DNA from: Syncephalastrum monosporum B8922
Lineage: Eukaryota; Mucoromycota; Mucoromycetes; Mucorales; Syncephalastraceae
Length of the DNA stretch: 64,000 nucleotides
Reading direction: 5' to 3'
NCBI GenBank assembly: GCA_000697355.1
Contig: JNEN01001227.1
Span: forward strand, 558,001-622,000
This document shows positions 2,261 through 22,790 of this stretch, piece by piece. Within the stretch, counting starts at the first letter, position 1, and each line of letters starts with the position of its first letter. A program made the position numbers and the translations under genes. A model generated the notes under the pieces. The model made no database searches. It saw only the letters and a program-made list of their open reading frames with translations, and was not told the DNA's origin.

Positions 2261-2333
2261 GGGGAGGTAGTGTAGTGGTTATCACGTTTGCTTTGCATGC
2301 AAAAGGCCCCGGGTTCAAATCCCGGTCTCTCCA
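2261..2333 (+). tRNA. tRNA-Ala (anticodon TGC)
   Basis: A full 73-nt cloverleaf. The 7-bp acceptor stem has the G3:U70 wobble pair that identifies tRNA-Ala, with discriminator A73. The anticodon stem TTTGC/GCAAA closes the loop TTTGCAT, giving anticodon TGC. The T-arm CCGGG-TTCAAAT-CCCGG is perfect and contains the B-box. There is no intron, and CCA is encoded only by coincidence of the last bases. A T-run follows directly and fits Pol III termination. Confidence 0.95.
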
Positions 2334-2339: not shown

Positions 2340-4150
2340 CGTTTTTCTGTTGTCGTCTCGGCGACCTCGTGGATATCTCCTTCTGTTCCTCAGAACATAC
2401 ATTTTTGGTGCTAAATTAGCGTTGATATTTCTCTTTTTTCCAAGACTATTACACTGACTTGTACCTGCCTGTACCTACCTAGTACCTGTGTCGTGGGCTC
2501 GTGGCAACTTACATAGCAAAAAGGACTAATGGCTTTAACTTATGTAGTTGAAAATATTTATCGAAGGATGAAAATAAGAACAAAGATGTAATAGCCTCAA
2601 GGGCAGTTTGCGATTCTTTTGTAGTCGAGTTTAGGGAAAGCTTCCGCTAAAAACCCATTCTGGGAAAAGCCTGAAGCTCTCGTGACTATGTCGTGGGCTG
2701 GATAGGGGGGTTTGATTGTGTAGTAGCCAGCTTGCCAATTGCTCCATACATATACTTCCTGATACTCTGTCTGATACTCTAAATTTTCCATCGTTCATGA
2801 GTAAAGGTAAACCAAAGATTTATAAAAAAATGCATATTCTATTTGGAGTAGGCTTACGGGTGAGTTCTATGAACAACTGAGATATAGGTAGGAAGATAGA
2901 AAATGAAGAGGAAAAATAAAGGTAACAGAAATAAGTCTGTGAGAATGTGTGTAGGTTGTTTATAAAGGTAGTTGAACTTGTGTTCTCAACTTATGCTACT
3001 TGGGTTCTGTCTTCTACCCTTTATATATCTTCTTGAATCTCACTTATGATGCTATGATCCGGGTACTCGGTTGCATACGAGCCAATCGGTATAAAGTGCG
3101 TAATGCAGATAAATTTCAATTGACATGTCGGATAAATGTGGTCCATACTAACGCAGTGAAACATATTAATTCCAGGTACCTTGAATTATGCCAATGTCAT
3201 AATAAAAATACCGGTATTCCTTGTGCGAGTCTTCTATGTCATCTTTGCGGGAAATCATTCTCATATTGGACGTACTTGTCTCGGTAATAATATTTATGTC
3301 TTCCTTGGCATTCAATCTCGGTATTATTATTAGGCAGTATGATTTGAGAGCAACCGTATCAGTGACTAAGTGGCCACATCTACCACACAGCATAAACTGA
3401 CTTTACTGTCCATACATGTTAGTATTGATGTAGGATATTGCCGGTTTAATTTTTTTTTGCCACCCGGTGTCTCGAAAAATCGGGCAGTTTCTAGTGTATA
3501 TTCTCTGGTATCAAAGCACAACGACCTCTCCGAGATATGTTTCTAGCCAGAAATGTACGGGCACTGGCTGGTGAGCAGTCATGTGGAAAGTCGTGAGACG
3601 ATTTGCTTTCCGAGAGTTTTGGTATAGGTACGCGAATTATCTTGCGTATTGAGTTGAAGGAGCTGGGATCATGAGGCATTCTGACAAAACAACATATATC
3701 GCGGCGTTTTTGCGTGAAAGGCATTGATCCCGCGGCTTAAACCACAGGGTCGTACTATATAAACGAGAAAAAGGAAAATGCATATATTCAAGTAAGAACA
3801 GCGATTTAACTGAGGCCAAGCGCTTCGCTGTGCTTTTTATTTTTAACCAACAGTCATTTCAGTAGTCTAGCCGCACAGTGTATGGTACTTCTTCATTATA
3901 CACTTCGTTTATGTGTAGTTTAAGCGTTTATAGAGTGTTTCCTATACGAAACAATAAGAGATGAGAAACCAAAAAAAAAATAAAAATAAATAAGGAGTGA
4001 GGATTTGGGTTTATTCATTATATAGTAGCTGCTCAAGGTCTTTAAACCGAGCGCTGGAGAGCTTCACGTACTGGAATTATCATCAGCAAAGTCGCGTCTT
4101 TTGTCACTAAATACCTCTTTTCCTCTTTTCCTCTTTTCCTCGCTCCCTCT
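2340..4150. other. Intergenic, AT-rich, no gene recognised
   Basis: Only short open frames without family motifs. A pyrimidine microsatellite with CCTCTTTT and CCTCTCC units occupies about 4110-4175 and leads into the repeats at the 3' end of the Fanzor gene. Confidence 0.55.
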
Positions 4151-4240
4151 CCCTCTCCCTTTCCCTCTCTTCCTCGTATGTCTCTGATTCTTCCTCGTAT
4201 GTCTCTGATGCTTCTCCTTATGGGCGCTGGGGCTGTGCTA

Positions 4241-4565
4241 CCCTGGTCGACTGCTCAACAGCGGCGCGCTATTCCTCATGTTTCTTTTGTTCTTCTTCCT
4301 CTTGTGGAGTTCGGGTCTGACGCTGGAGTTCGATTGATCTGTTGCCCTTGGTTAACTGCTCGACAGCGGCGCGTTGCTCTCCTGCTCTTCTTATTCCTCA
4401 TGTTCCTCTTGTCCCTCATGTTCCTCATGCTCCTCCTGTTCTTCTTCCTCTTGTTCTTCTTGTTCCTCATGCTCCTCCTGTTCTTCTTCCTCTTCTGGAG
4501 CCCGCGCCGGGCGCTGGAGGTCGCTCGGTCTGCTACCCTTGGTCAACTGCTCGACAGCGGCGCGG
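4241..4565 (-). repeat. Three-copy tandem block at the 3' end of the Fanzor gene
   Basis: The segment coding for AAVEQLTKG near the Fanzor C-terminus (plus-strand core CTGCTCGACAGCGGCGCG at about 4541-4565) recurs at about 4347-4373 and 4241-4267, each time beside a GCGCTGG-like stretch. Copies are 106 and about 190 bp apart and separated by Glu-rich (CTC/TTC/CTT) microsatellite. Two copies lie downstream of the stop at 4391, so they are 3'-flanking duplications of coding sequence. Confidence 0.7.
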
Positions 4566-7500
4566 CGAATGTTCCTGCTGGCATTGACGTCACGTTGCCA
4601 TAATCTGTTACAATTCTTGCAAGCCAGTACACCGTGCAATGCGAATTCCAACGCGGGTGGACGATAATGTTTGAGTCTGGCCTTCTTGTCACGTAGCTTG
4701 CAGCGGGAGCATACCTGCGACGTGAAATACTCGTCAACCTTCACAACTTCCAACAGTCCTTGCCGCTGTCCACGTTTCAGCATTTTGGTGAGAGTTCCAG
4801 CCAGGCTAGCTGTTTGTTTGCCGCGGTAGGTAGATGGGAACGCCGCATTTCCAAGAGCCACAAGAGGTTTTTTGCTCGATTGACTGAAAGGTGCCTTTTT
4901 CCACTTGTTGCTGTTTGAGTAGAGATTCATTAGTGTAAAGAAATAGATATCGGATCATTTTGTCAATGCATACCTTGGCGGCCGATAATAACTCTCGAAA
5001 GGATAACGGAGAGGCGGGCGGTTACGTGGTGGATCCGCCAACGGTGGCCAAGGGTCCTCTGATGCTGGTACGTTGAAAAACCTGCGCCTGTCTGGTGGCG
5101 GGGCAGAAGGACCTCCTGGTGGATATGCGATCCGCTGGTATGGTGTCGGGTCAGGATCAGGGAAGAAAAAACTCGAGACGGTCAGGGGTTGGGCTAGGTC
5201 CCATGCTGATTGTCGATACCACTGTCTCCGCTGGCGCGCGTCGCGCTGCTCTTGATGCGCTTGTTCCCGCTGTTCATGTACGCCTCTTTGCTCTTGCCGT
5301 TGACGTAGGTTATCGCGTTGTTTTCGTAGGCGGTCCGGACAATATTTTCTGCCTCCGTTCACGAAAATATTCAGGATTTCTGATTGAGCGCGCTGTCGAC
5401 CGGCGTAGTTGTAGAATCGAAACTTGGGGCCATGGTCACGATAAAAGCCGGTCAGCTGCGGCAGCAATTCGAATAACTGTTGGAGGTATTGCATGAGCGT
5501 GTTTGGGTCGCTGGTCTTGTACCGGAATCGGCTCAGTCGTTCCTCGGCCTGGATTATGCCTTCGTTTCTTTTCGCTTCCAGCATTTTCTTTGAGGACTTT
5601 TTGTAACCGGCGATCGAATAGAACTCTGCACCGCCCATCCTGCGGATCTGGTATGGCTCCTCATCATGGTCGTTGCTTGCCACGAAGATTTCGGTAACGC
5701 CAGGATCGACGCCCCATACTTCGTACTTGTCCTGTACTGCTTGGTCCGTTGCAGTCTCCGCGACATCTTTGACATGTTCTTCTTCTGTTCTTTGCCTGGC
5801 CAGCATAAAGTCCACACCGTGGCCATCGGATCTGATATGACCAGTGAACATCACCGGAGGTTCTGGCTCTGTGATGGTTGCCAGCATATTGGGAAAACCG
5901 ATAGCAGAAAAGTCAAAAGTCTCGGCGAAAAGCCGGAGGATGTCGTCCCACTTTTTTGGATGGGTGGAAATGCCTGCTCGCTGACTTACACCTTCCAGCA
6001 AGTGTGGTGTAGAGTGCCGCATAAGCGCCGCGAGCACTTCGCCGTCGATATATACGTAGCGTCTGCTCAGATGGGAAGACGGCGCCAGGCTAAAGTACGG
6101 TCGTTGCTGAGCTACTTGATAGGCTTCTGGAGTAAAGCAGTCGCCGAGCTGTACGCCGGCAGCAACACCACTCAGGTATCGGTGCGAGTTTTCGATTTTG
6201 CGCCTTGTATCAAAAATAGTGTCTTGAATTCGTTGACGGGACGGCTGTGAAAGCTTCTCCATATCGACACGGTTTTGATACTTGCTGACAGCTTCTTGAA
6301 TATCCTTTGCCAGACGGCTTCGATATCTGCGACCGAGCTGAGGCCACTCTGGCAGGTCTTTGATCACCGAGTATGCCCATGAGCGAGTGGCCTGGATTTG
6401 AGGACGGTTGGCAGATGCTAGCTGATAGCGTTGAATCGTTCGATGCGTCTGAGAGCGTGGAACATGAACGACATGTAGCAATAAGGATACTGGGCGAGCG
6501 ATGCATCCGTGATAGGGAGGATATCTTCGAGGCGGTCCTCTGGCGGTATCGCCATGCTTCATTGATCAACGCTTCGGTCCTCTCCTGCAACAGGGCCGTA
6601 CGCTTGACGCTGGCTGGCCAGCGGGCTGGTTGCTCCATTTCTGCAAACTGGCCGTAAATATAATGCGCCAAGTGCTTGGCCTGTGGGACGGTCAGACGTG
6701 TGACATCGTTGTTGTCAAGCAGTGCATATACAAAAAAGCTCTTGGCGTTCCGCTCGAAGCGCTCCGAGATTGAATTGCGGAAGGCCACCTCCATTTCTCT
6801 GGCGAGGGCTTGTCGTGCGTTGCTGTATGGGAGACTTTCGACTGTGCATTTCGCCGGCCGCTGGAATTGGGGTTTGTAGATATTCCGGAAAACGGCCGTC
6901 ATGTCATACTTGGGTAGGAGCGAATTTGGGCTCGAGATCGAGGACCCGTCGACTAGCTGGATACAGGCCGCAAAGAAAGGCTGGTCGAAAAGAATAGCTG
7001 GGAGGGGCTGATTTGGGTCTCGATTCAAGGTATGGAGCAAGTAGAAGTGAGCAAATGCTTGTGCCTTGATGCCCAGTTCGGTGATATAATCAACCATTAT
7101 GCGGAGCTCATTCATGAATCCTTGCTTTTGAGCACCATCAAAGCGGAGGGCAGACTCGACACTTGCCTTGCGGACAAATTGAGCAAAATTATCATCCCGC
7201 AGCTTGTCTTGCATAATGTTCTTGTACGACGGATTGTTAAATGGGCACAGCTTGTTTCTTGTGCTACCGTGCGGTTTGTCTTTGTCGTACACGCCTTCTT
7301 TCGTACACCTGGAGCATGGCTTTACGTTTGGATTCTTGGTCGCCTGCTTCAGTTTTTCTTTGCCTTTTATGTGCTGCTCCTTTTTGGATTCGCCAGCGTC
7401 GTCAAGGGAGTCTGTTTCGTCGTCAGACCAGGCTGCGGCATCGTCAGAGGCATCTATTGTCATTGATGCAAAGGCATCCAGCACAGACCAAACTGGTGAA

Positions 7501-7927
7501 ATTGCCATCGGCGATGGGGAGCGGGCGACATAGGCAGCAGGGGCGGCAGGCGAGGCGGGATAGGCGCTGCCGTTATGGATCGCAGCTGAAGAGCTTGCGC
7601 CGTTGGCCTCACTTCTGTCGAAGGCGCTTTTAATTAATTATGTTAGATAGGTTATTCTTTTTTTGTAAGTGATATTTACATTGGGTAGTCATGGAACTGT
7701 TTTCTCGTAGGCCCAAGGAAAAAGTTTAAACGGTCTTCAGCACCGTTGATACCGTTGGCAAGGTAGGTCCCGTTGGTGATGCTGGCGATGCTGGTGTGGT
7801 TAGTTTGATGAGAATGGTTAGTATGGTTAGTGGGGTGGATGGGGTGGATGGAAGGGTTCAAATCCTTCAAGTCCAACTTTCGACGTTTCCTATTACGGCT
7901 CAAAGGGAGATCAGCAACGTCTTTCAT
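4391..7927 (-). CDS. Fanzor (eukaryotic TnpB-like RNA-guided nuclease), spliced, with two apparent 1-nt frame breaks
   Basis: Fanzors are RNA-guided DNA endonucleases related to bacterial TnpB. Exons: 7680-7927, 4974-7626, 4391-4910. Intron 7627-7679 is GTAAAT..CTAAC..AAAAG; intron 4911-4973 is GTATGC..CTAAT..AAACAG and removes an in-frame stop. Seen, numbered on the conceptual 1140-aa frame: an N-terminal basic cluster RNRKRRK (likely NLS), a long helical region, RuvC-I GVDPGVTEIF (Asp about 723), a Gln/Arg- then Pro-rich insert, ALGNAAF at the RuvC-II position, VDEYFTS (Glu about 1028), two CxxC pairs (CSRC, CKNC) of a zinc ribbon, and RuvC-III QRDVNASRN (Asp about 1075). The tail is Glu-rich. 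Reading frame shifts once near 6555 and once near 6420. Exon lengths total 3421 nt, exactly two short of a multiple of three, which fits two 1-nt losses. The copy may be recently dead, or the breaks may be sequence errors. Confidence 0.88.
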
Positions 7928-10484
7928 TTTCTGTTATCGTTTTCTTACGGTGGTGGTTGATCAAGATCCATTGTCGCATTTTCGACGAATGTCCAATGGA
8001 CTTGACGTTCCATCTATTTGAAGAAAGGAGTCAACTGGTTAAAGCAAACGAATCGCTATGCGTGGTAGATTGGTATTACAGTTCGTAATCAGTAGAAACG
8101 TGAAAAAAAGTACAGACTGAAAGACAAAGGACTAGAGCCTTCCAAAGGTGCGTTCATCTTAACGAGTTGACAAGTCAGTCACTTCCAAATAGAGGCGAAC
8201 TACCCCTGAGTGACGAGAATCTATAACAGGAGAAGTGTAAACATCGATGTTCCTTGTACCGACGTGTACTGCAAATAAATTTTGGATAATCATTTCAATC
8301 CAAAAAAGAAAGAAAAATGTAAACATCGATGTCGCAAGGCTGACGACCATTGCCGAACATTTATCTCATGACCACATGTGCATACGAATCGTGACTCAAG
8401 GTCGCCCTTTGTGCTTCAAGTTGATCTTGGATATTTCCTTGGCTCAACCTGCCAAATAAATTGAAAGCTACAAGTTCGAGTGATAACTCGTAAAATCTTA
8501 GTATTAGCCACCAAAATTCATGCGGTACAGAGTTTCTTCCTATCGGTGAACGGACGGTCGGGGAATCCAGCCCCTAAATCTTCTGTTCACACCGATTCAG
8601 GAAGGATGTAAACTTGTTGAACGACCGCTAATAAACTTGTCCCTTGCATGATCACGTTGCTTTGCTTGTTGTTCATTGTCATATACCAATCGATCATTCA
8701 GAATGGTCGTGCTACGTGACTTATTTTATCGACGACACAAAAATAAACGTACCCTCGTTGAAATCTTGGACAACTGTGGTATGTACATGCATATACACAG
8801 CAGGACGCATGATCTAGAAGGAACAAGCAATTTAACGCCATCGGAGCAGTACACATGCGTGTAAGGTACTCGCTCTCGTATAATGACCGAATACGTCACC
8901 AGAAAAGGAAATGAAAAAGAATGTCATTGACATGGTGTAATATACGCGATAAGGGTTTCGTTCTCCTACGTGAGTCTGGGACCTCAACGACAAGGAACAA
9001 AAAGAGCAGCCTTGCAGCAAATGCATGTATACAGAAAAAAATTTTAGACCCGGCGCGGGTCCCTTCCGAAAAGAACCCCAGAGTAGTATACGTAGCCGAC
9101 CTGACATCCTTGATAGACTGGTGGGACCATCATTGAAGACACTCGGAATGAATACTATTCGTAATGCCCAAATGCATTGTATTCTAGTGTAAAGCAAGGC
9201 TTTCTGCTGCTCTAGATATGTAAGCGGTCATCATATCTCCAAAGATGCGAATCTAGAGCGTGTGGTTTATTTTCGTCGTTTTGGGAGAGTAATGGACCAG
9301 TACTTCCCCTTTAAGCAGTAAAATGTTGCCAGTCGGTATTAATGAACCAGTACTTTCCTTCCTTTCTTGTCGTCAGTGAAAGAAGCTTGTTTAAGCCCGG
9401 GACGCATCTGGAGTCTCATTTTTCAAAAATATATATAAAAAGGCTGCTCACTTCAAGTAAGCCTACCCACCGCACTTCTTTTCAACGTTTCCATACACCT
9501 GTCTACCTTACTGTCAAGACCATATGGGTAGCTCCTGCAGTTCAGTATGTTTTATTAGGTACGCTAATGTTTCTTTGATTTATTTATAGGCCAGCTTACT
9601 ATTCGTCCAGTGTATCACATGTGGAGGTTACATTCCTGTTTGATTTTCGGTGAACATTCAGGTATGATTTTGTAGTTCACAATCGGCGAGAGTGGATCTA
9701 ACGGGTTCTATTTTATATGTAGCAGCTACAAGATCCTTTTGAACGTGCTATTATTGCAGCAGCATCGATCCGTCAAACTTGCATTGCGTGGGATAAGGTG
9801 TGTTTACTTTCGAAAGAGTTCAGTATATATTAATGACATCGCCTCTCTCTCCTTTTTCTACCATCTGCTCTAGTACTTTTCTTCGGCTTCGTCGGCGTCT
9901 GAGTAGTCTATTAGCTCATCAAAAGCTCAATAGATTATGGTAACGCGACGTCAAGAGAAAAGCCAGGTGTTCGCTCGCCTTTTAAGTTGCAGCGTTCACA
10001 AAGAAGAACAACTACCGAGCAGATAAAAACTGTCTCTTGTTTCCTTAATTGGTAAGCACTGTCACAAACATAGCGAATGGAAGCCATTCTAATTTCATAG
10101 GAATGTGGGATGTTTGGACCTGTAAAGCAATCAGAGTGTCACTTTTAGACGAAGCGAAGCGAGTTTCACCGCCGTGTATAAAATAATATGTTCTGTAAGC
10201 GGCTTAATCCCGCAGGCGAATCCTACGCAGCCAGGCAAAGTTCTCACCGTCGCGCTATCGAGCCATATAATATACTACATCTGTTCCTTTGTCTGAGATC
10301 ATGGTGCAGCTATCGTCCTTCACAGCAGCCTCGTTTCCTACTACTTACAAAAAAAAAAAAAAAGATCGAGACAGTTTCCCGTTTAAATTGGCGACTTTTA
10401 TCTATTGAGATAAAGTATAGAGAACACAGATGAAATTCCTGCCATCTGACACCATTTCCATGAAACACATAGGACATTAACATC
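7928..10484. other. Long intergenic stretch upstream of Fanzor
   Basis: No convincing coding region on either strand; open frames are short and lack motifs. Contains the presumed Fanzor promoter next to 7927 and a strong hairpin at 8536-8604, listed separately. A smaller inverted repeat (CTATTAGCT..AGCTCAATAG) sits near 9905-9935. Confidence 0.55.
8536..8604. other. Strong 69-nt hairpin, function unknown
   Basis: The left arm CTTCCTATCGGTGAACGGA (8536-8554) pairs with TCTGTTCACACCGATTCAGGAAG (about 8582-8604, small bulges), giving about 19 bp. A GGGG/CCCC stem with a 7-nt loop sits inside. It lies in unassigned DNA about 600 bp upstream of the Fanzor start. It could be a structured RNA, a small inverted-repeat element, or chance. 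No snoRNA boxes or Pol III signals were found. Confidence 0.4.
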
Positions 10485-11251
10485 CTCTCATACGGGCCTT
10501 TTGCCCATCGGTAAGTGTGAGCGGCCTGAAGGCAGAATAGGCCAATGGATTCTTTGAAACGCGAAAAAGCGGTTGATGTCAATCCATGTCAGCGTCCTTA
10601 TCTTTACGCTCTTTTCCCCGATGGTAAAGCGTGGATTGCGTGATAGCTTGGTTAGCCAAGGGATCTCATGAAACTTGGAAAAAAGCTCTACGTCAATCCT
10701 TGCCAGGCCCTTATCTTTTACACCTCCTTTTCCGTTGTTGCAGCCGTCCCGTGTTCTTGCATGAACGTCGATTGACGTGTGCTCTTTCTCATTAACGGTG
10801 TTTTGTCTTCTCGCACGTCTACTTTTCTTCTTATTTTTTTTTTTACTCTGGTCAAGTCTTCCGCTGGCAAGTATATACCAAATGATATGGTGACAAGTAT
10901 GAACTAATAATCGAAACATAGACCTCTCCGTCCCTTAAATCCCTCTGCCACTGGTTGCCTATCCCAACTGCACCAGTGTGCATGATAGTAAGTTGTCGCG
11001 TCAAGGGTACATGGTTTTGGACATCACTAACCTTCTTCTGATGTATACTTAGCTTCCAATCTTCTTCCTCGCTTCTTCTCATGTCTTTTCCGTTCGCGCC
11101 TCTTCCTACTCTCCGCTTGCTCTCCTCACACCAAAGGGTTTTTTTTTTACCGCTTTTTCCTCTGCCCGTAAATAAAACTGATTCAGGTCTATGCATTGAA
11201 TATGAGACATAAACACATGTTCCAGTTCCGCTCCTTTTTCGCGTCCCCTTT

Positions 11252-11353
11252 GCTTTTCTTCCTCTCCGCTTCCTCTGCGCTTCCTCTCCGCTTCCTCTCC
11301 GCTTCCTCTCCGCTTCCTCTCCGCTTCCTCTGCGCTTCCTCTCCGCTTCCTCC
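11252..11353 (+). repeat. 11-bp minisatellite inside copy A
   Basis: About eight head-to-tail copies of CTTCCTCTCCG with a C/G variant (CTTCCTCTGCG). The matching position in copy B (about 20940-20980) has only a single irregular pyrimidine stretch, so the array expanded in copy A. Confidence 0.8.
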
Positions 11354-11599
11354 TTCTTTCCGTTTGCGACCCACTAGCATAGGCGGTCGGTGGCTGGGAC
11401 CATCACTGAAACTCCCTCAATGACATCGCCCCTGCGCCAAACGTCTGCGTCCCGGCCACCGGTAAGTGTTTTGCAACTGGGTAATGTGTCACTGTAACTC
11501 AAATGTGTATCCAGCTTAGGTGAGTCGGCGGCAGCGCGCTGTGAGCGCGCGTTGACGACCCCGGCTCCGGCCGCTGGTATGTAGAATCAAAATGAAGAG

Positions 11600-11642
11600 T
11601 AGCCCACGAGAACTAATTTCGGAGCGAAATCTCGTAGGCTAG
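11600..11642 (+). repeat. Hairpin and CTAG end of copy A
   Basis: TAGCC-ACGAGA on the left pairs with TCTCGT-GGCTA on the right, around an inner stem ATTTCG-GAG-CGAAAT. CTAG follows, then TTAT. The same structure ends copy B at 21220-21262, and similarity stops just after it. A short GC-rich hairpin about 8 nt before CTRR is the hallmark of Helitron 3' ends; here the element is only suggestive. Confidence 0.5.
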
Positions 11643-11705
11643 TTATAGATTAACAGTACGGTACACATACAGTGCAAGCAAAAAGTTAGATAAATAGAAG
11701 TAGAG

Positions 11706-19689: not shown

Positions 19690-21262
19690 TTTGAGATGTG
19701 AACGGTACCTGACGTCAATCCTCATGAAGGTCTTTTTCCCTTTGTCCTTGGTAAAGGTGACCGCGTGATAGCAAAGTAGGCCAATGAATCCTCTGAAACG
19801 CGAAAGATACCTGACGTCAATACCTGTCAGCGTCTTTTTCCCTGCGTTCTTTTCCCATTGGCAGACGCCCTTCATGTTATCGCATGAAAGTTCATTGATG
19901 CAAGTCTGCTTCATAAAGGTCAAATGTTATTTTATTTTCAGAAGCGTAATGGCCCACGCCTTCAGGTATATGGCCGCTTCTTATAAGTATCTGTGGATAT
20001 ATGTATGCTGTAAAAAAAACTCAAATTGAGAAAAAACAGAAAAGGTGTCTGTGACTTAGGTGTCAAGGTGTTCCTCTTGAGGGGCAAGGGAATCAAGCAA
20101 TGCGGCTCGTGGATCTGTACTGTCTTCCTCTAGTTGTCCTCTTCTATTGTGGCCGCTGGCTCTTGCGATGTCACGGAGGACTAGTAGAAGTAGTGGCCAG
20201 CTGTCTCGCCAGTGTCCTTTATTGAGGGCTGGGGCACTGCGTGGGAGCACGTTCAGCGCGTGGTCGAGGAAATGGGTGTCTTGTGGCACTGTGCCGTTCA
20301 ACGACTGAACAAGTTGCCTTCGATGTCGGGTCAAAGACTCGTCTGGGCAGGTGATAAAGTGGTTTCTTTTTGCTTGCGGCTGGCCACAGGTACATGTTCT
20401 GGGTGGGAAGGAGGGGAGCCAGTGCATACGCCAGTTGAACAGGTTGCGTCTGTCACGTAGGTTGGTGGGCTCTGCTTCATAAAAGACGACTATTTTCTCC
20501 CACGTCTACTTTTCTTCTTCTTCTTTACTTTGGTCAAGTCATCCTGCTGGCAAGTACATACGAAAGGATTCTGATTACAAGTATAAACTAATAAGAAGTG
20601 CAACATAGACCACTGCGTTCCCATAAGTCCCTCTGCCACCGGTAGCCCGTCCCCAACTGCACCGGTGTGCATGAAAGTAAGTTGTCGCGTCAAGAGTACA
20701 TGGTCTTGGACAGCATTAACGTCCTTCTGAATGTATACTCAGCTTGCAGTCCTCTTCCTCGCTTCTCCTCCTGTCTTCTCTTCCGTTCGCGCCTTTGCCT
20801 TCTTTCCGCTTGCTGCCCTCACATCAGAAGTTTTTTTTCCGCTTTTTCCTCTGCCCGTAAGTCAAACAGATTCAGGTCTATGCATTGAATATGAGTCATT
20901 AACACTCGTTTCAGTTCCGCTCCTTTCTCGCGTCCCTTTTGCATCTCTTGCTCTCCGCCTCCTATTCCTTCCTTCTTTCCCACTTGCGACCCACTAGCCG
21001 ACCCGTTGGTGGCCGGTACCACCGTTGCAACTCCCTCAATGACATCGCCCTAGCACCAAATGTCTGCTCCCCGCCCACCGGTAACTTTTTTGCAACTGGG
21101 TAATGTGTCACTGTAACTTACACGTGTATTCAGCTTCAGGTGAGGTGGCGGCAGCGCGCCGTGAGCGCGCGTCGACGACTCCGGCCCCGGTAGCTGGTAT
21201 GTAGAATAAAAATGAAGTGTAGTCCACGAAAACTGATTTCGGAACGAAATTTCGTAGGCTAG
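19690..21262 (+). repeat. Dispersed repeat, copy B, containing a LINE fragment
   Basis: Second copy of the 10485-11642 repeat. It starts with two units of about 100 bp that each carry CCTGACGTCAAT, and shares GGCCAATGAATC and GAAACGCGAAA with copy A. About 19920-20500 has no counterpart in copy A and codes, on minus, for a LINE-type C-terminus. The right part (about 20510-21262) aligns with copy A again, through AAGTTGTCGCGTCAAG, CTCCCTCAATGACATCGCC and GCAACTGGGTAATGTGTCAC, to the same terminal hairpin (21220-21261) and CTAG. Confidence 0.7.
20056..20500 (-). pseudogene. 3' end of a LINE-type retrotransposon reverse transcriptase ORF
   Basis: Open on minus from about 20500 to the stop at 20056. 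Seen: NLRDRRNLFNWRMHWLP, then PPRTCTCGQPQAKRNHFITCP, a CxCx(n)HxxxxC zinc knuckle that ends many fungal non-LTR reverse transcriptases, followed by NVLPRSAPALNKGHW and an acidic end. The polymerase and endonuclease domains are absent, so this is a 5'-truncated or captured fragment. Its 5' side runs into repeat copy B DNA. Family assignment rests on motif pattern only. Confidence 0.6.

Positions 21263-22790
<1,528 letters not shown>

Follow-up and report, generated by a model that had tools for sequence, protein, structure and literature searches.

Fanzor proteins are eukaryotic relatives of the CRISPR-type RNA-guided DNA cutters. Within the Mucorales, the Fanzor1 elements ROr-4, PBl-3, MCi-2, MCi-4, and MCi-5 were described in 2013 by Bao and Jurka, and the available text of that work includes a family whose members agree in their 3′ parts and differ in their 5′ parts (PMC3627910). 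The structure of a Fanzor1 from Parasitella has been solved (PMC11423790), and for Spizellomyces the accessible part of the published account places the guide-RNA scaffold between the stop codon and the transposon end (PMC10432273). Here we describe a stretch of 64,000 nt from Syncephalastrum monosporum B8922 (the window, in whose coordinates all positions are given), in which a minus-strand gene spanning 8013–4391 is very likely a Fanzor1-type gene copy that broke recently and belongs to a dispersed, apparently mobile family. It sits in a genome of 27.5 Mb in 198 contigs; contigs are labeled C and loci L.

As far as the available text describes the elements of PMC3627910, the family resembles them in having a Mucoralean relative (P0001, introduced below), in its TnpB-type C-terminal motif, and in being multicopy. 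Like MCi-2 in that account, it keeps 3′ ends in common while the 5′ regions differ, and no terminal inverted repeats were found. In contrast to those elements, neither MuDR-type ends nor target duplications of 11–12 bp were found, and the D-to-TS spacing of the C-terminal motif is longer; the comparison is one of element features. The solved proteins PpFz1, SpuFz1, and GtFz1 (PDB 9cf0, 8gkh, and 9cer; available text of PMC11423790) are all matched by our terminal-exon sequence and profile. The similarity to them is low, however, no match lies outside RuvC/TNB, and the intact protein of our family, encoded on contig C75, is 1160 aa long with a Gln/Arg/Pro-rich insert. As in the SpuFz1 elements and ghost loci of Spizellomyces punctatus (available text of PMC10432273), there are many gene copies and a short conserved 3′ end followed by variable flank, and at least one locus (C100) retains only part of the end, as ghost loci do. 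According to the same text, the SpuFz1 elements differ in having inverted repeats of 30 nt and a guide RNA that has been sequenced.

Gene structure

The preliminary description of this DNA placed a minus-strand coding sequence with two introns here, and both the coding sequence and the introns (7679–7627 and 4973–4911) are present. We propose a gene of four exons on the minus strand. Exon 4 (4391–4910) encodes the RuvC-II region, a C4 zinc ribbon, RuvC-III, and an acidic low-complexity tail, and exon 3 (4974–7626) encodes an N-terminal Cys motif, RuvC-I, and the Gln/Arg/Pro-rich insert. Exon 2 (7680–7889), the same in the C75 paralog, carries a sequence resembling a nuclear localization signal, KRRK (7888–7877), and KRRKL is also found in P0001. 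Proposed exon 1 (7949–8013), which was absent from the earlier model, would contain the start Met, although this start is uncertain; it is suggested by the GT..AG intron that follows and by a Met-to-Met alignment with P0001. Scored against P0001, the exon 8013–7949 plus its 59-nt intron reaches 52 and the start first proposed 41, moderate evidence that the gene may begin in this further upstream exon. If that start is right, the "SRNR" half of the signal originally read as RNRKRRK is intronic and only the KRRK part stays. The window introns (7948–7890, 59 nt; 7679–7627, 53 nt; 4973–4911, 63 nt) are all bounded by GT..AG, as are those at the corresponding sites of the C75 paralog (59, 48, and 62 nt).

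Domain and motif evidence for Fanzor identity

The TnpB/Fanzor superfamily is recognized by a C4 zinc-ribbon TNB domain (PF07282) followed by the RuvC-III Arg-Asp, and the window gene has both. A domain search found PF07282 in the window terminal exon with an E-value of 4.3e-13 (49.6 bits, cut-off 26.3), and the domain is present in each of seven aligned terminal exons, which were drawn from 37 match rows with the C146 and C46 exons excluded, a stop being listed in each. The NCBIfam model guided_TnpB also matched (1.8e-9), under its curated cut-off. When a profile of the seven terminal exons was compared with the PDB, the best match had an E-value of 7.4e-5 and PpFz1 one of 0.038; by name, 23 of the 31 rows at E up to 0.1 were TnpB, Fanzor, Cas12-type, or designed RNA-guided nucleases. 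This count includes LaTranC and the entries whose names give just transposase or OrfB, which we take to be RNA-guided nucleases. A profile of the RuvC core, built from nine pieces and compared with 177,635 PDB sequences, had SpuFz1 (Spizellomyces Fanzor1) as its best match (E 0.0093; next, 0.32).

Every motif named in the preliminary description was recovered: RuvC-I as GVDPG at 5699–5713, the segment ALGNAAF, which lacks a Glu, VDEYFTS with the alternative catalytic Glu at 4730–4732, the C4 zinc ribbon (CSRC...CKNC) at 4610–4711, identified by sequence, PF07282, and alignment, and the RuvC-III Arg-Asp within QRDVNASRN at 4589–4594, all on the minus strand. A published Fanzor fingerprint joins DPG in RuvC-I to a Glu that precedes the zinc ribbon by six residues (available text of PMC10711439). 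Here, DPG occurs in all nine aligned pieces (seven chosen irrespective of motif, C142 and C182 chosen by motif), and both the Glu, six residues ahead of the first ribbon Cys, and the Arg-Asp are invariant in the seven terminal exons. In the intact C75 protein, the corresponding residues are Asp734, Glu1038, Cys1045/1048/1075/1078, and Asp1085 (counted on from Arg1084), so that the fingerprint spacing runs from Glu1038 to the first ribbon Cys1045. Some bacterial TnpBs carry the same combination of DPG and Glu. A further Fanzor1 trait in the accessible text of PMC10711439 is a TDG motif in the WED domain; upstream of RuvC-I, a candidate for this motif reads TDG in P0001 and in two copies of a sister subfamily with GADPG as its RuvC-I motif, and SDG in the window, C75, and C40 sequences. 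Together, PF07282, the profile matches to solved TnpB, Fanzor, and Cas12 proteins, SpuFz1 as best match to the RuvC core, and the fingerprint uphold the original identification as a Fanzor.

The long Gln/Arg/Pro-rich insert noted earlier between RuvC-I and RuvC-II is likewise present (4974–5341); it is conserved in P0001 and C75 and has a low-complexity counterpart in the GADPG subfamily. Nearer the N-terminus lies a Cys-rich motif (CSRC...LC, 7245–7316), zinc-knuckle-like by eye, with similar motifs in the GADPG subfamily.

Only one database homolog was found: P0001, the Syncephalastrum racemosum hypothetical protein BCR43DRAFT_518717. In alignment with the C75 protein it is identical at 690 of 1038 residues, insert included, but its record stops before the zinc ribbon, so that the gene model is probably truncated. 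Because scoring was limited to approximately 8000 candidates sharing most words with the query, probably crowded by low-complexity words, a single homolog does not establish that the family is rare. Under the same scoring of approximately 8000 candidates, no homolog in the protein database was found with a query from the RuvC side of the C167 relative.

A probably broken window copy and an intact paralog

The preliminary description joined three exons into a continuous protein of approximately 1140 aa; joined in this way, they give 1140 codons with 21 stops. In the window, exon 4974–7626 is open only piecewise, in different frames. A paralog on C75 is 95% identical across all 4801 bases of window 3800–8600, and comparison of the two copies over 6350–6700 locates two one-base length differences, one near 6545 and the other near 6427, separated by 118 bases on which both copies agree. 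As a consequence the window frame shifts twice, leaving a shifted-frame stretch at 6427–6545 (minus strand). The central exon of C75 is open throughout (892 aa), and splicing this copy at its GT..AG introns yields an intact four-exon protein. Thus the designation of a large nuclease gene fits the C75 paralog, while the window copy is broken: as sequenced it is unable to make the full protein, and it is most likely a pseudogene.

Copies, subfamilies, and selection

Matches to the gene are dispersed through the genome, with 35 rows for exon 3, of which 18 contain stops, and 37 for exon 4; several rows may share one locus, and the counts are lower bounds for repeats. PF07282 has 26 genome matches, 25 of them above the cut-off, window and C75 included. 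By RuvC-I motif, the sequences fetched fall into GVDPG (window, C75, C70, and C40), GADPG (C146, C167, C105, and C46), and GIDPG (C142 and C182). The ratio of amino-acid-changing to silent differences per site (dN/dS) between window and C75 is 0.27, 0.41, and 0.26 in three segments. For GADPG it is 0.24 between C167 and C146 and 0.22 between the C167 and C105 terminal exons, and comparisons with C40, in which silent sites are near saturation, give 0.27 and 0.31. Amino-acid-changing differences per site are fewer than silent ones between copies; by this measure, constraint on the protein acted while the copies diverged, as would fit a family of active elements.

At C105 (L015), two GADPG Fanzor copies face opposite ways, the second ended by the contig edge. 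A further TnpB/Fanzor-like family with open frames of 265–441 aa is represented by L051 (C173:151800–153400), and the PF07282 scores of C176, C179, C24, C156, and C164 are near-equal to that of C173. In the single C173 sequence read, RuvC-I has DCG in place of DPG, and a phmmer search up to E 0.1 returned no related PDB sequence for this family. Among viral contigs, 30 stretches fit a pattern and none encodes a relative.

Proposed ends of the window element

The Fanzor gene lies within a segment of approximately 6.7 kb (3388–10112, minus strand) at whose limits matches to repeats elsewhere in the genome begin or stop. The 10112 end is sharp: 15 of 50 matches to window 8560–10300 begin at 10111–10114, and the 114-nt end itself has 33 matches, of which 19 come within 3 nt of its limit. 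The opposite end falls at 3388 by comparison with C95 or near 3427 by comparison with C69. Gapped pieces from much of the segment occur on C95 and C153, one piece on C95 being inverted. From these dispersed partial copies we infer that the segment is mobile. Neither terminal inverted repeats nor a target duplication could be found in the window element, and at five of five copies of the 10112 end there was no convincing target-site duplication, weak repeats being seen inside some elements.

Abutting the segment at 2878–3387 is a different repeat, approximately 510 bp long, that begins with TG, ends with CA, and recurs in many partial copies across the genome; it resembles a solo long terminal repeat and for which no matching target duplication was found by eye. 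The C75 match continues through this abutting repeat to 2913. The outer flank at 10114–10300 is itself repeated elsewhere, and several matches cover that part alone, stopping near 10112. Just inside the 10112 end, on the plus strand at 9929–9954, lies a remnant of RuvC-III coding sequence that would derive from a second, opposite-facing Fanzor (88% identity over 26 nt to window 4609–4584, E 6e-4).

A conserved right end in the GADPG subfamily

The 3′ end of the GADPG subfamily is sharp and lies approximately 120 nt past the stop codon in C167 and C105, where it reads ...TTGTTCGTTTCAGCC. This right end is common to six of seven compared loci, C86 diverging earlier, and at nine loci with the right-end string the DNA beyond differs each time. 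The string occurs at 16 genome sites (9 exact and 7 with one mismatch), versus none for a reversed-pattern control, and 12 of the 16 lie within longer matches to the right end. Those at C19, C49, and C189 look like chance occurrences without a longer match; the C191 site also lacks one. Alignment of eight ends reveals two conserved islands with mean pairwise identities of 0.92 and 0.96 around a variable spacer (0.66), the island limits having been drawn after the alignment was inspected. The corresponding RNA would form two small hairpins. Such a 3′ end is as expected of a guide-bearing transposon end, for which it is a candidate, and it resembles the guide-RNA scaffold of Spizellomyces described in PMC10432273.

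No convincing target-site duplication was found at eight of nine right ends, or at eight of nine loci in a second set in which several lack a 5′ boundary. At L041 (C191:27900–28400), only the terminal 27 nt of the GADPG right end are present, set between perfect 9-bp direct repeats (GAGTAATGG). This locus resembles an extremely truncated insertion and is a single unexplained case.

A terminal module shared among loci

The last part of the window segment, at 10004–10112 on the plus strand, is a terminal module of approximately 107 nt that repeat matches place at many loci of the genome, a candidate transposon end. It is nearly unchanged at loci with at least three different neighboring sequences and different outer flanks (L037, L039, L040, and L044–L048). 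One neighbor of the module encodes CCHC zinc knuckles (E 9e-8). The pattern GTTTCCTTA..GTAAG, devised from the two ends, is common to the module and the GADPG right end; it gave 18 rows, in which doubly fetched places are counted twice, all of them in one of those two kinds of end. By a rough estimate, approximately one chance match would be expected across the scanned sequence. As a lead, the module is possibly a Fanzor transposon end used by several elements. We regard as doubtful the stronger proposal that this end is shared in trans by the Fanzor element and otherwise unrelated mobile segments, one with a host-like HAD-phosphatase gene piece and one with a CCHC zinc-knuckle open reading frame. 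If it were true, a Fanzor protein made elsewhere could load many guides and act for all of these segments.

At L049 (C75:91000–92600) the module's neighbor encodes a phosphatase-like gene piece, and similar upstream sequence lies beside the module at C120. By eye we take the L049 piece to be enolase-phosphatase-like; against Pfam it gives weak HAD matches under the cut-off, the best with an E-value of 6.1e-4.

Other features of the window

A repeat family with other genome copies at L016, L020, and L022 occupies 10991–11645 and 20680–21265. A tRNA-Ala gene (TGC) at 2261–2333 (plus strand) is the sole Rfam match in the window at the gathering threshold.

Alternative explanations

Several results weigh against reading the window gene as a broken copy from a mobile, RNA-guided Fanzor1-type family. 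The published motif of the TnpB/Fanzor superfamily, D-X(125,275)-[TS][TS]-X-X-C4-X(5,50)-RD (available text of PMC3627910), agrees with the C75 protein in order, residues, and the TS-C and C4-RD spacings, but the D-to-TS stretch is 306 residues, outside the published range because of the Gln/Arg/Pro-rich insert (it is 237 in the C167 relative, with the splice placed by hand); we therefore name the family Fanzor1-like and not Fanzor1. The SpuFz1 match to the RuvC-core profile lies after RuvC-I and leaves DPG outside. The N-terminal 890 aa had no Pfam match, and this holds for the intact C75 protein as well (its 892-aa exon, up to E 0.1); there was no Pfam family in two pieces of the window central exon up to E 1. 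Compared with the PDB, a profile of the whole central exon gave no Fanzor, only low-complexity or chance-level matches, and the single C75 central exon gave nothing. Structure prediction, which the preliminary description had proposed, failed: an AlphaFold model of P0001 and window pieces had a mean pLDDT of 34.9, was uninformative on the RuvC fold and on the pair of kinked REC2 helices that characterizes Fanzor1, and was not used. As for the RNA and the ends, compensatory changes were seen in none of the ten pairs of the candidate right-end RNA, and the window gene is not followed by any right end of the GADPG kind that could be found. Because the abutting repeat down to 2913 is common to the window and C75 copies, these two may be the product of a segmental duplication instead of transposition, and the frame breaks could be assembly errors.

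That last point belongs to a distinct reading, in which the breaks arose in sequencing or assembly and the organism carries a working large Fanzor gene at this locus. Just two one-base differences break the window gene, and the roughly 350 nt around both are 98.9% identical to the open C75 copy; yet this reading needs two separate errors, and decay is frequent among the relatives that the genome holds, as the stops in the exon 3 rows indicate, which leaves it unlikely. It is rather improbable that the family descends from Fanzors but no longer encodes an RNA-guided nuclease and serves its elements in another role, for example, binding DNA through the N-terminal Cys-rich and basic regions. The long N-terminal and Gln/Arg/Pro additions, the D-to-TS spacing, and the missing recognizable right end of the window subfamily would all suit such a loss, but no aligned copy has lost the proposed catalytic residues, and in the sister subfamily a 3′ end is conserved where one would be expected. 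The preliminary description took the introns as a sign of domestication by the host. The gene does have introns, and dN/dS between copies is below 1; however, the intact paralog has the same introns, and constraint between copies is expected of an active selfish element too. The family is dispersed and multicopy, with truncated and decayed relatives, and is not a single-copy host locus. We reject domestication on copy number and decay, and consider a domesticated host gene highly improbable.

We favor the reading of the window gene as a recently broken member of an apparently mobile Fanzor1-type family. In the mechanism that we propose for it, intact family proteins would bind RNA from the element's own 3′ end, the neighboring DNA would serve as the guide, matching DNA would be cut by the D-E-D RuvC site, and cutting would help the element persist or spread. 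For the window subfamily, the guide-RNA step is suggested by kinship.

Significance

In the literature covered, no Fanzor paper was found for Syncephalastrum or Mucoromycota, and two were found for Mucor; most subscription journals lie outside that coverage, so the family may still have been published. On the sequences compared, the family is an unusually long Fanzor1-like subfamily, new within the known Fanzors, while the window copy itself is a case of ordinary decay. One small fungal genome holds this long subfamily, one copy of it intact, alongside sister subfamilies and candidate transposon ends. It offers a usable natural setting for studying what Fanzors do for their elements, a question that the available text of PMC10432273 leaves open.

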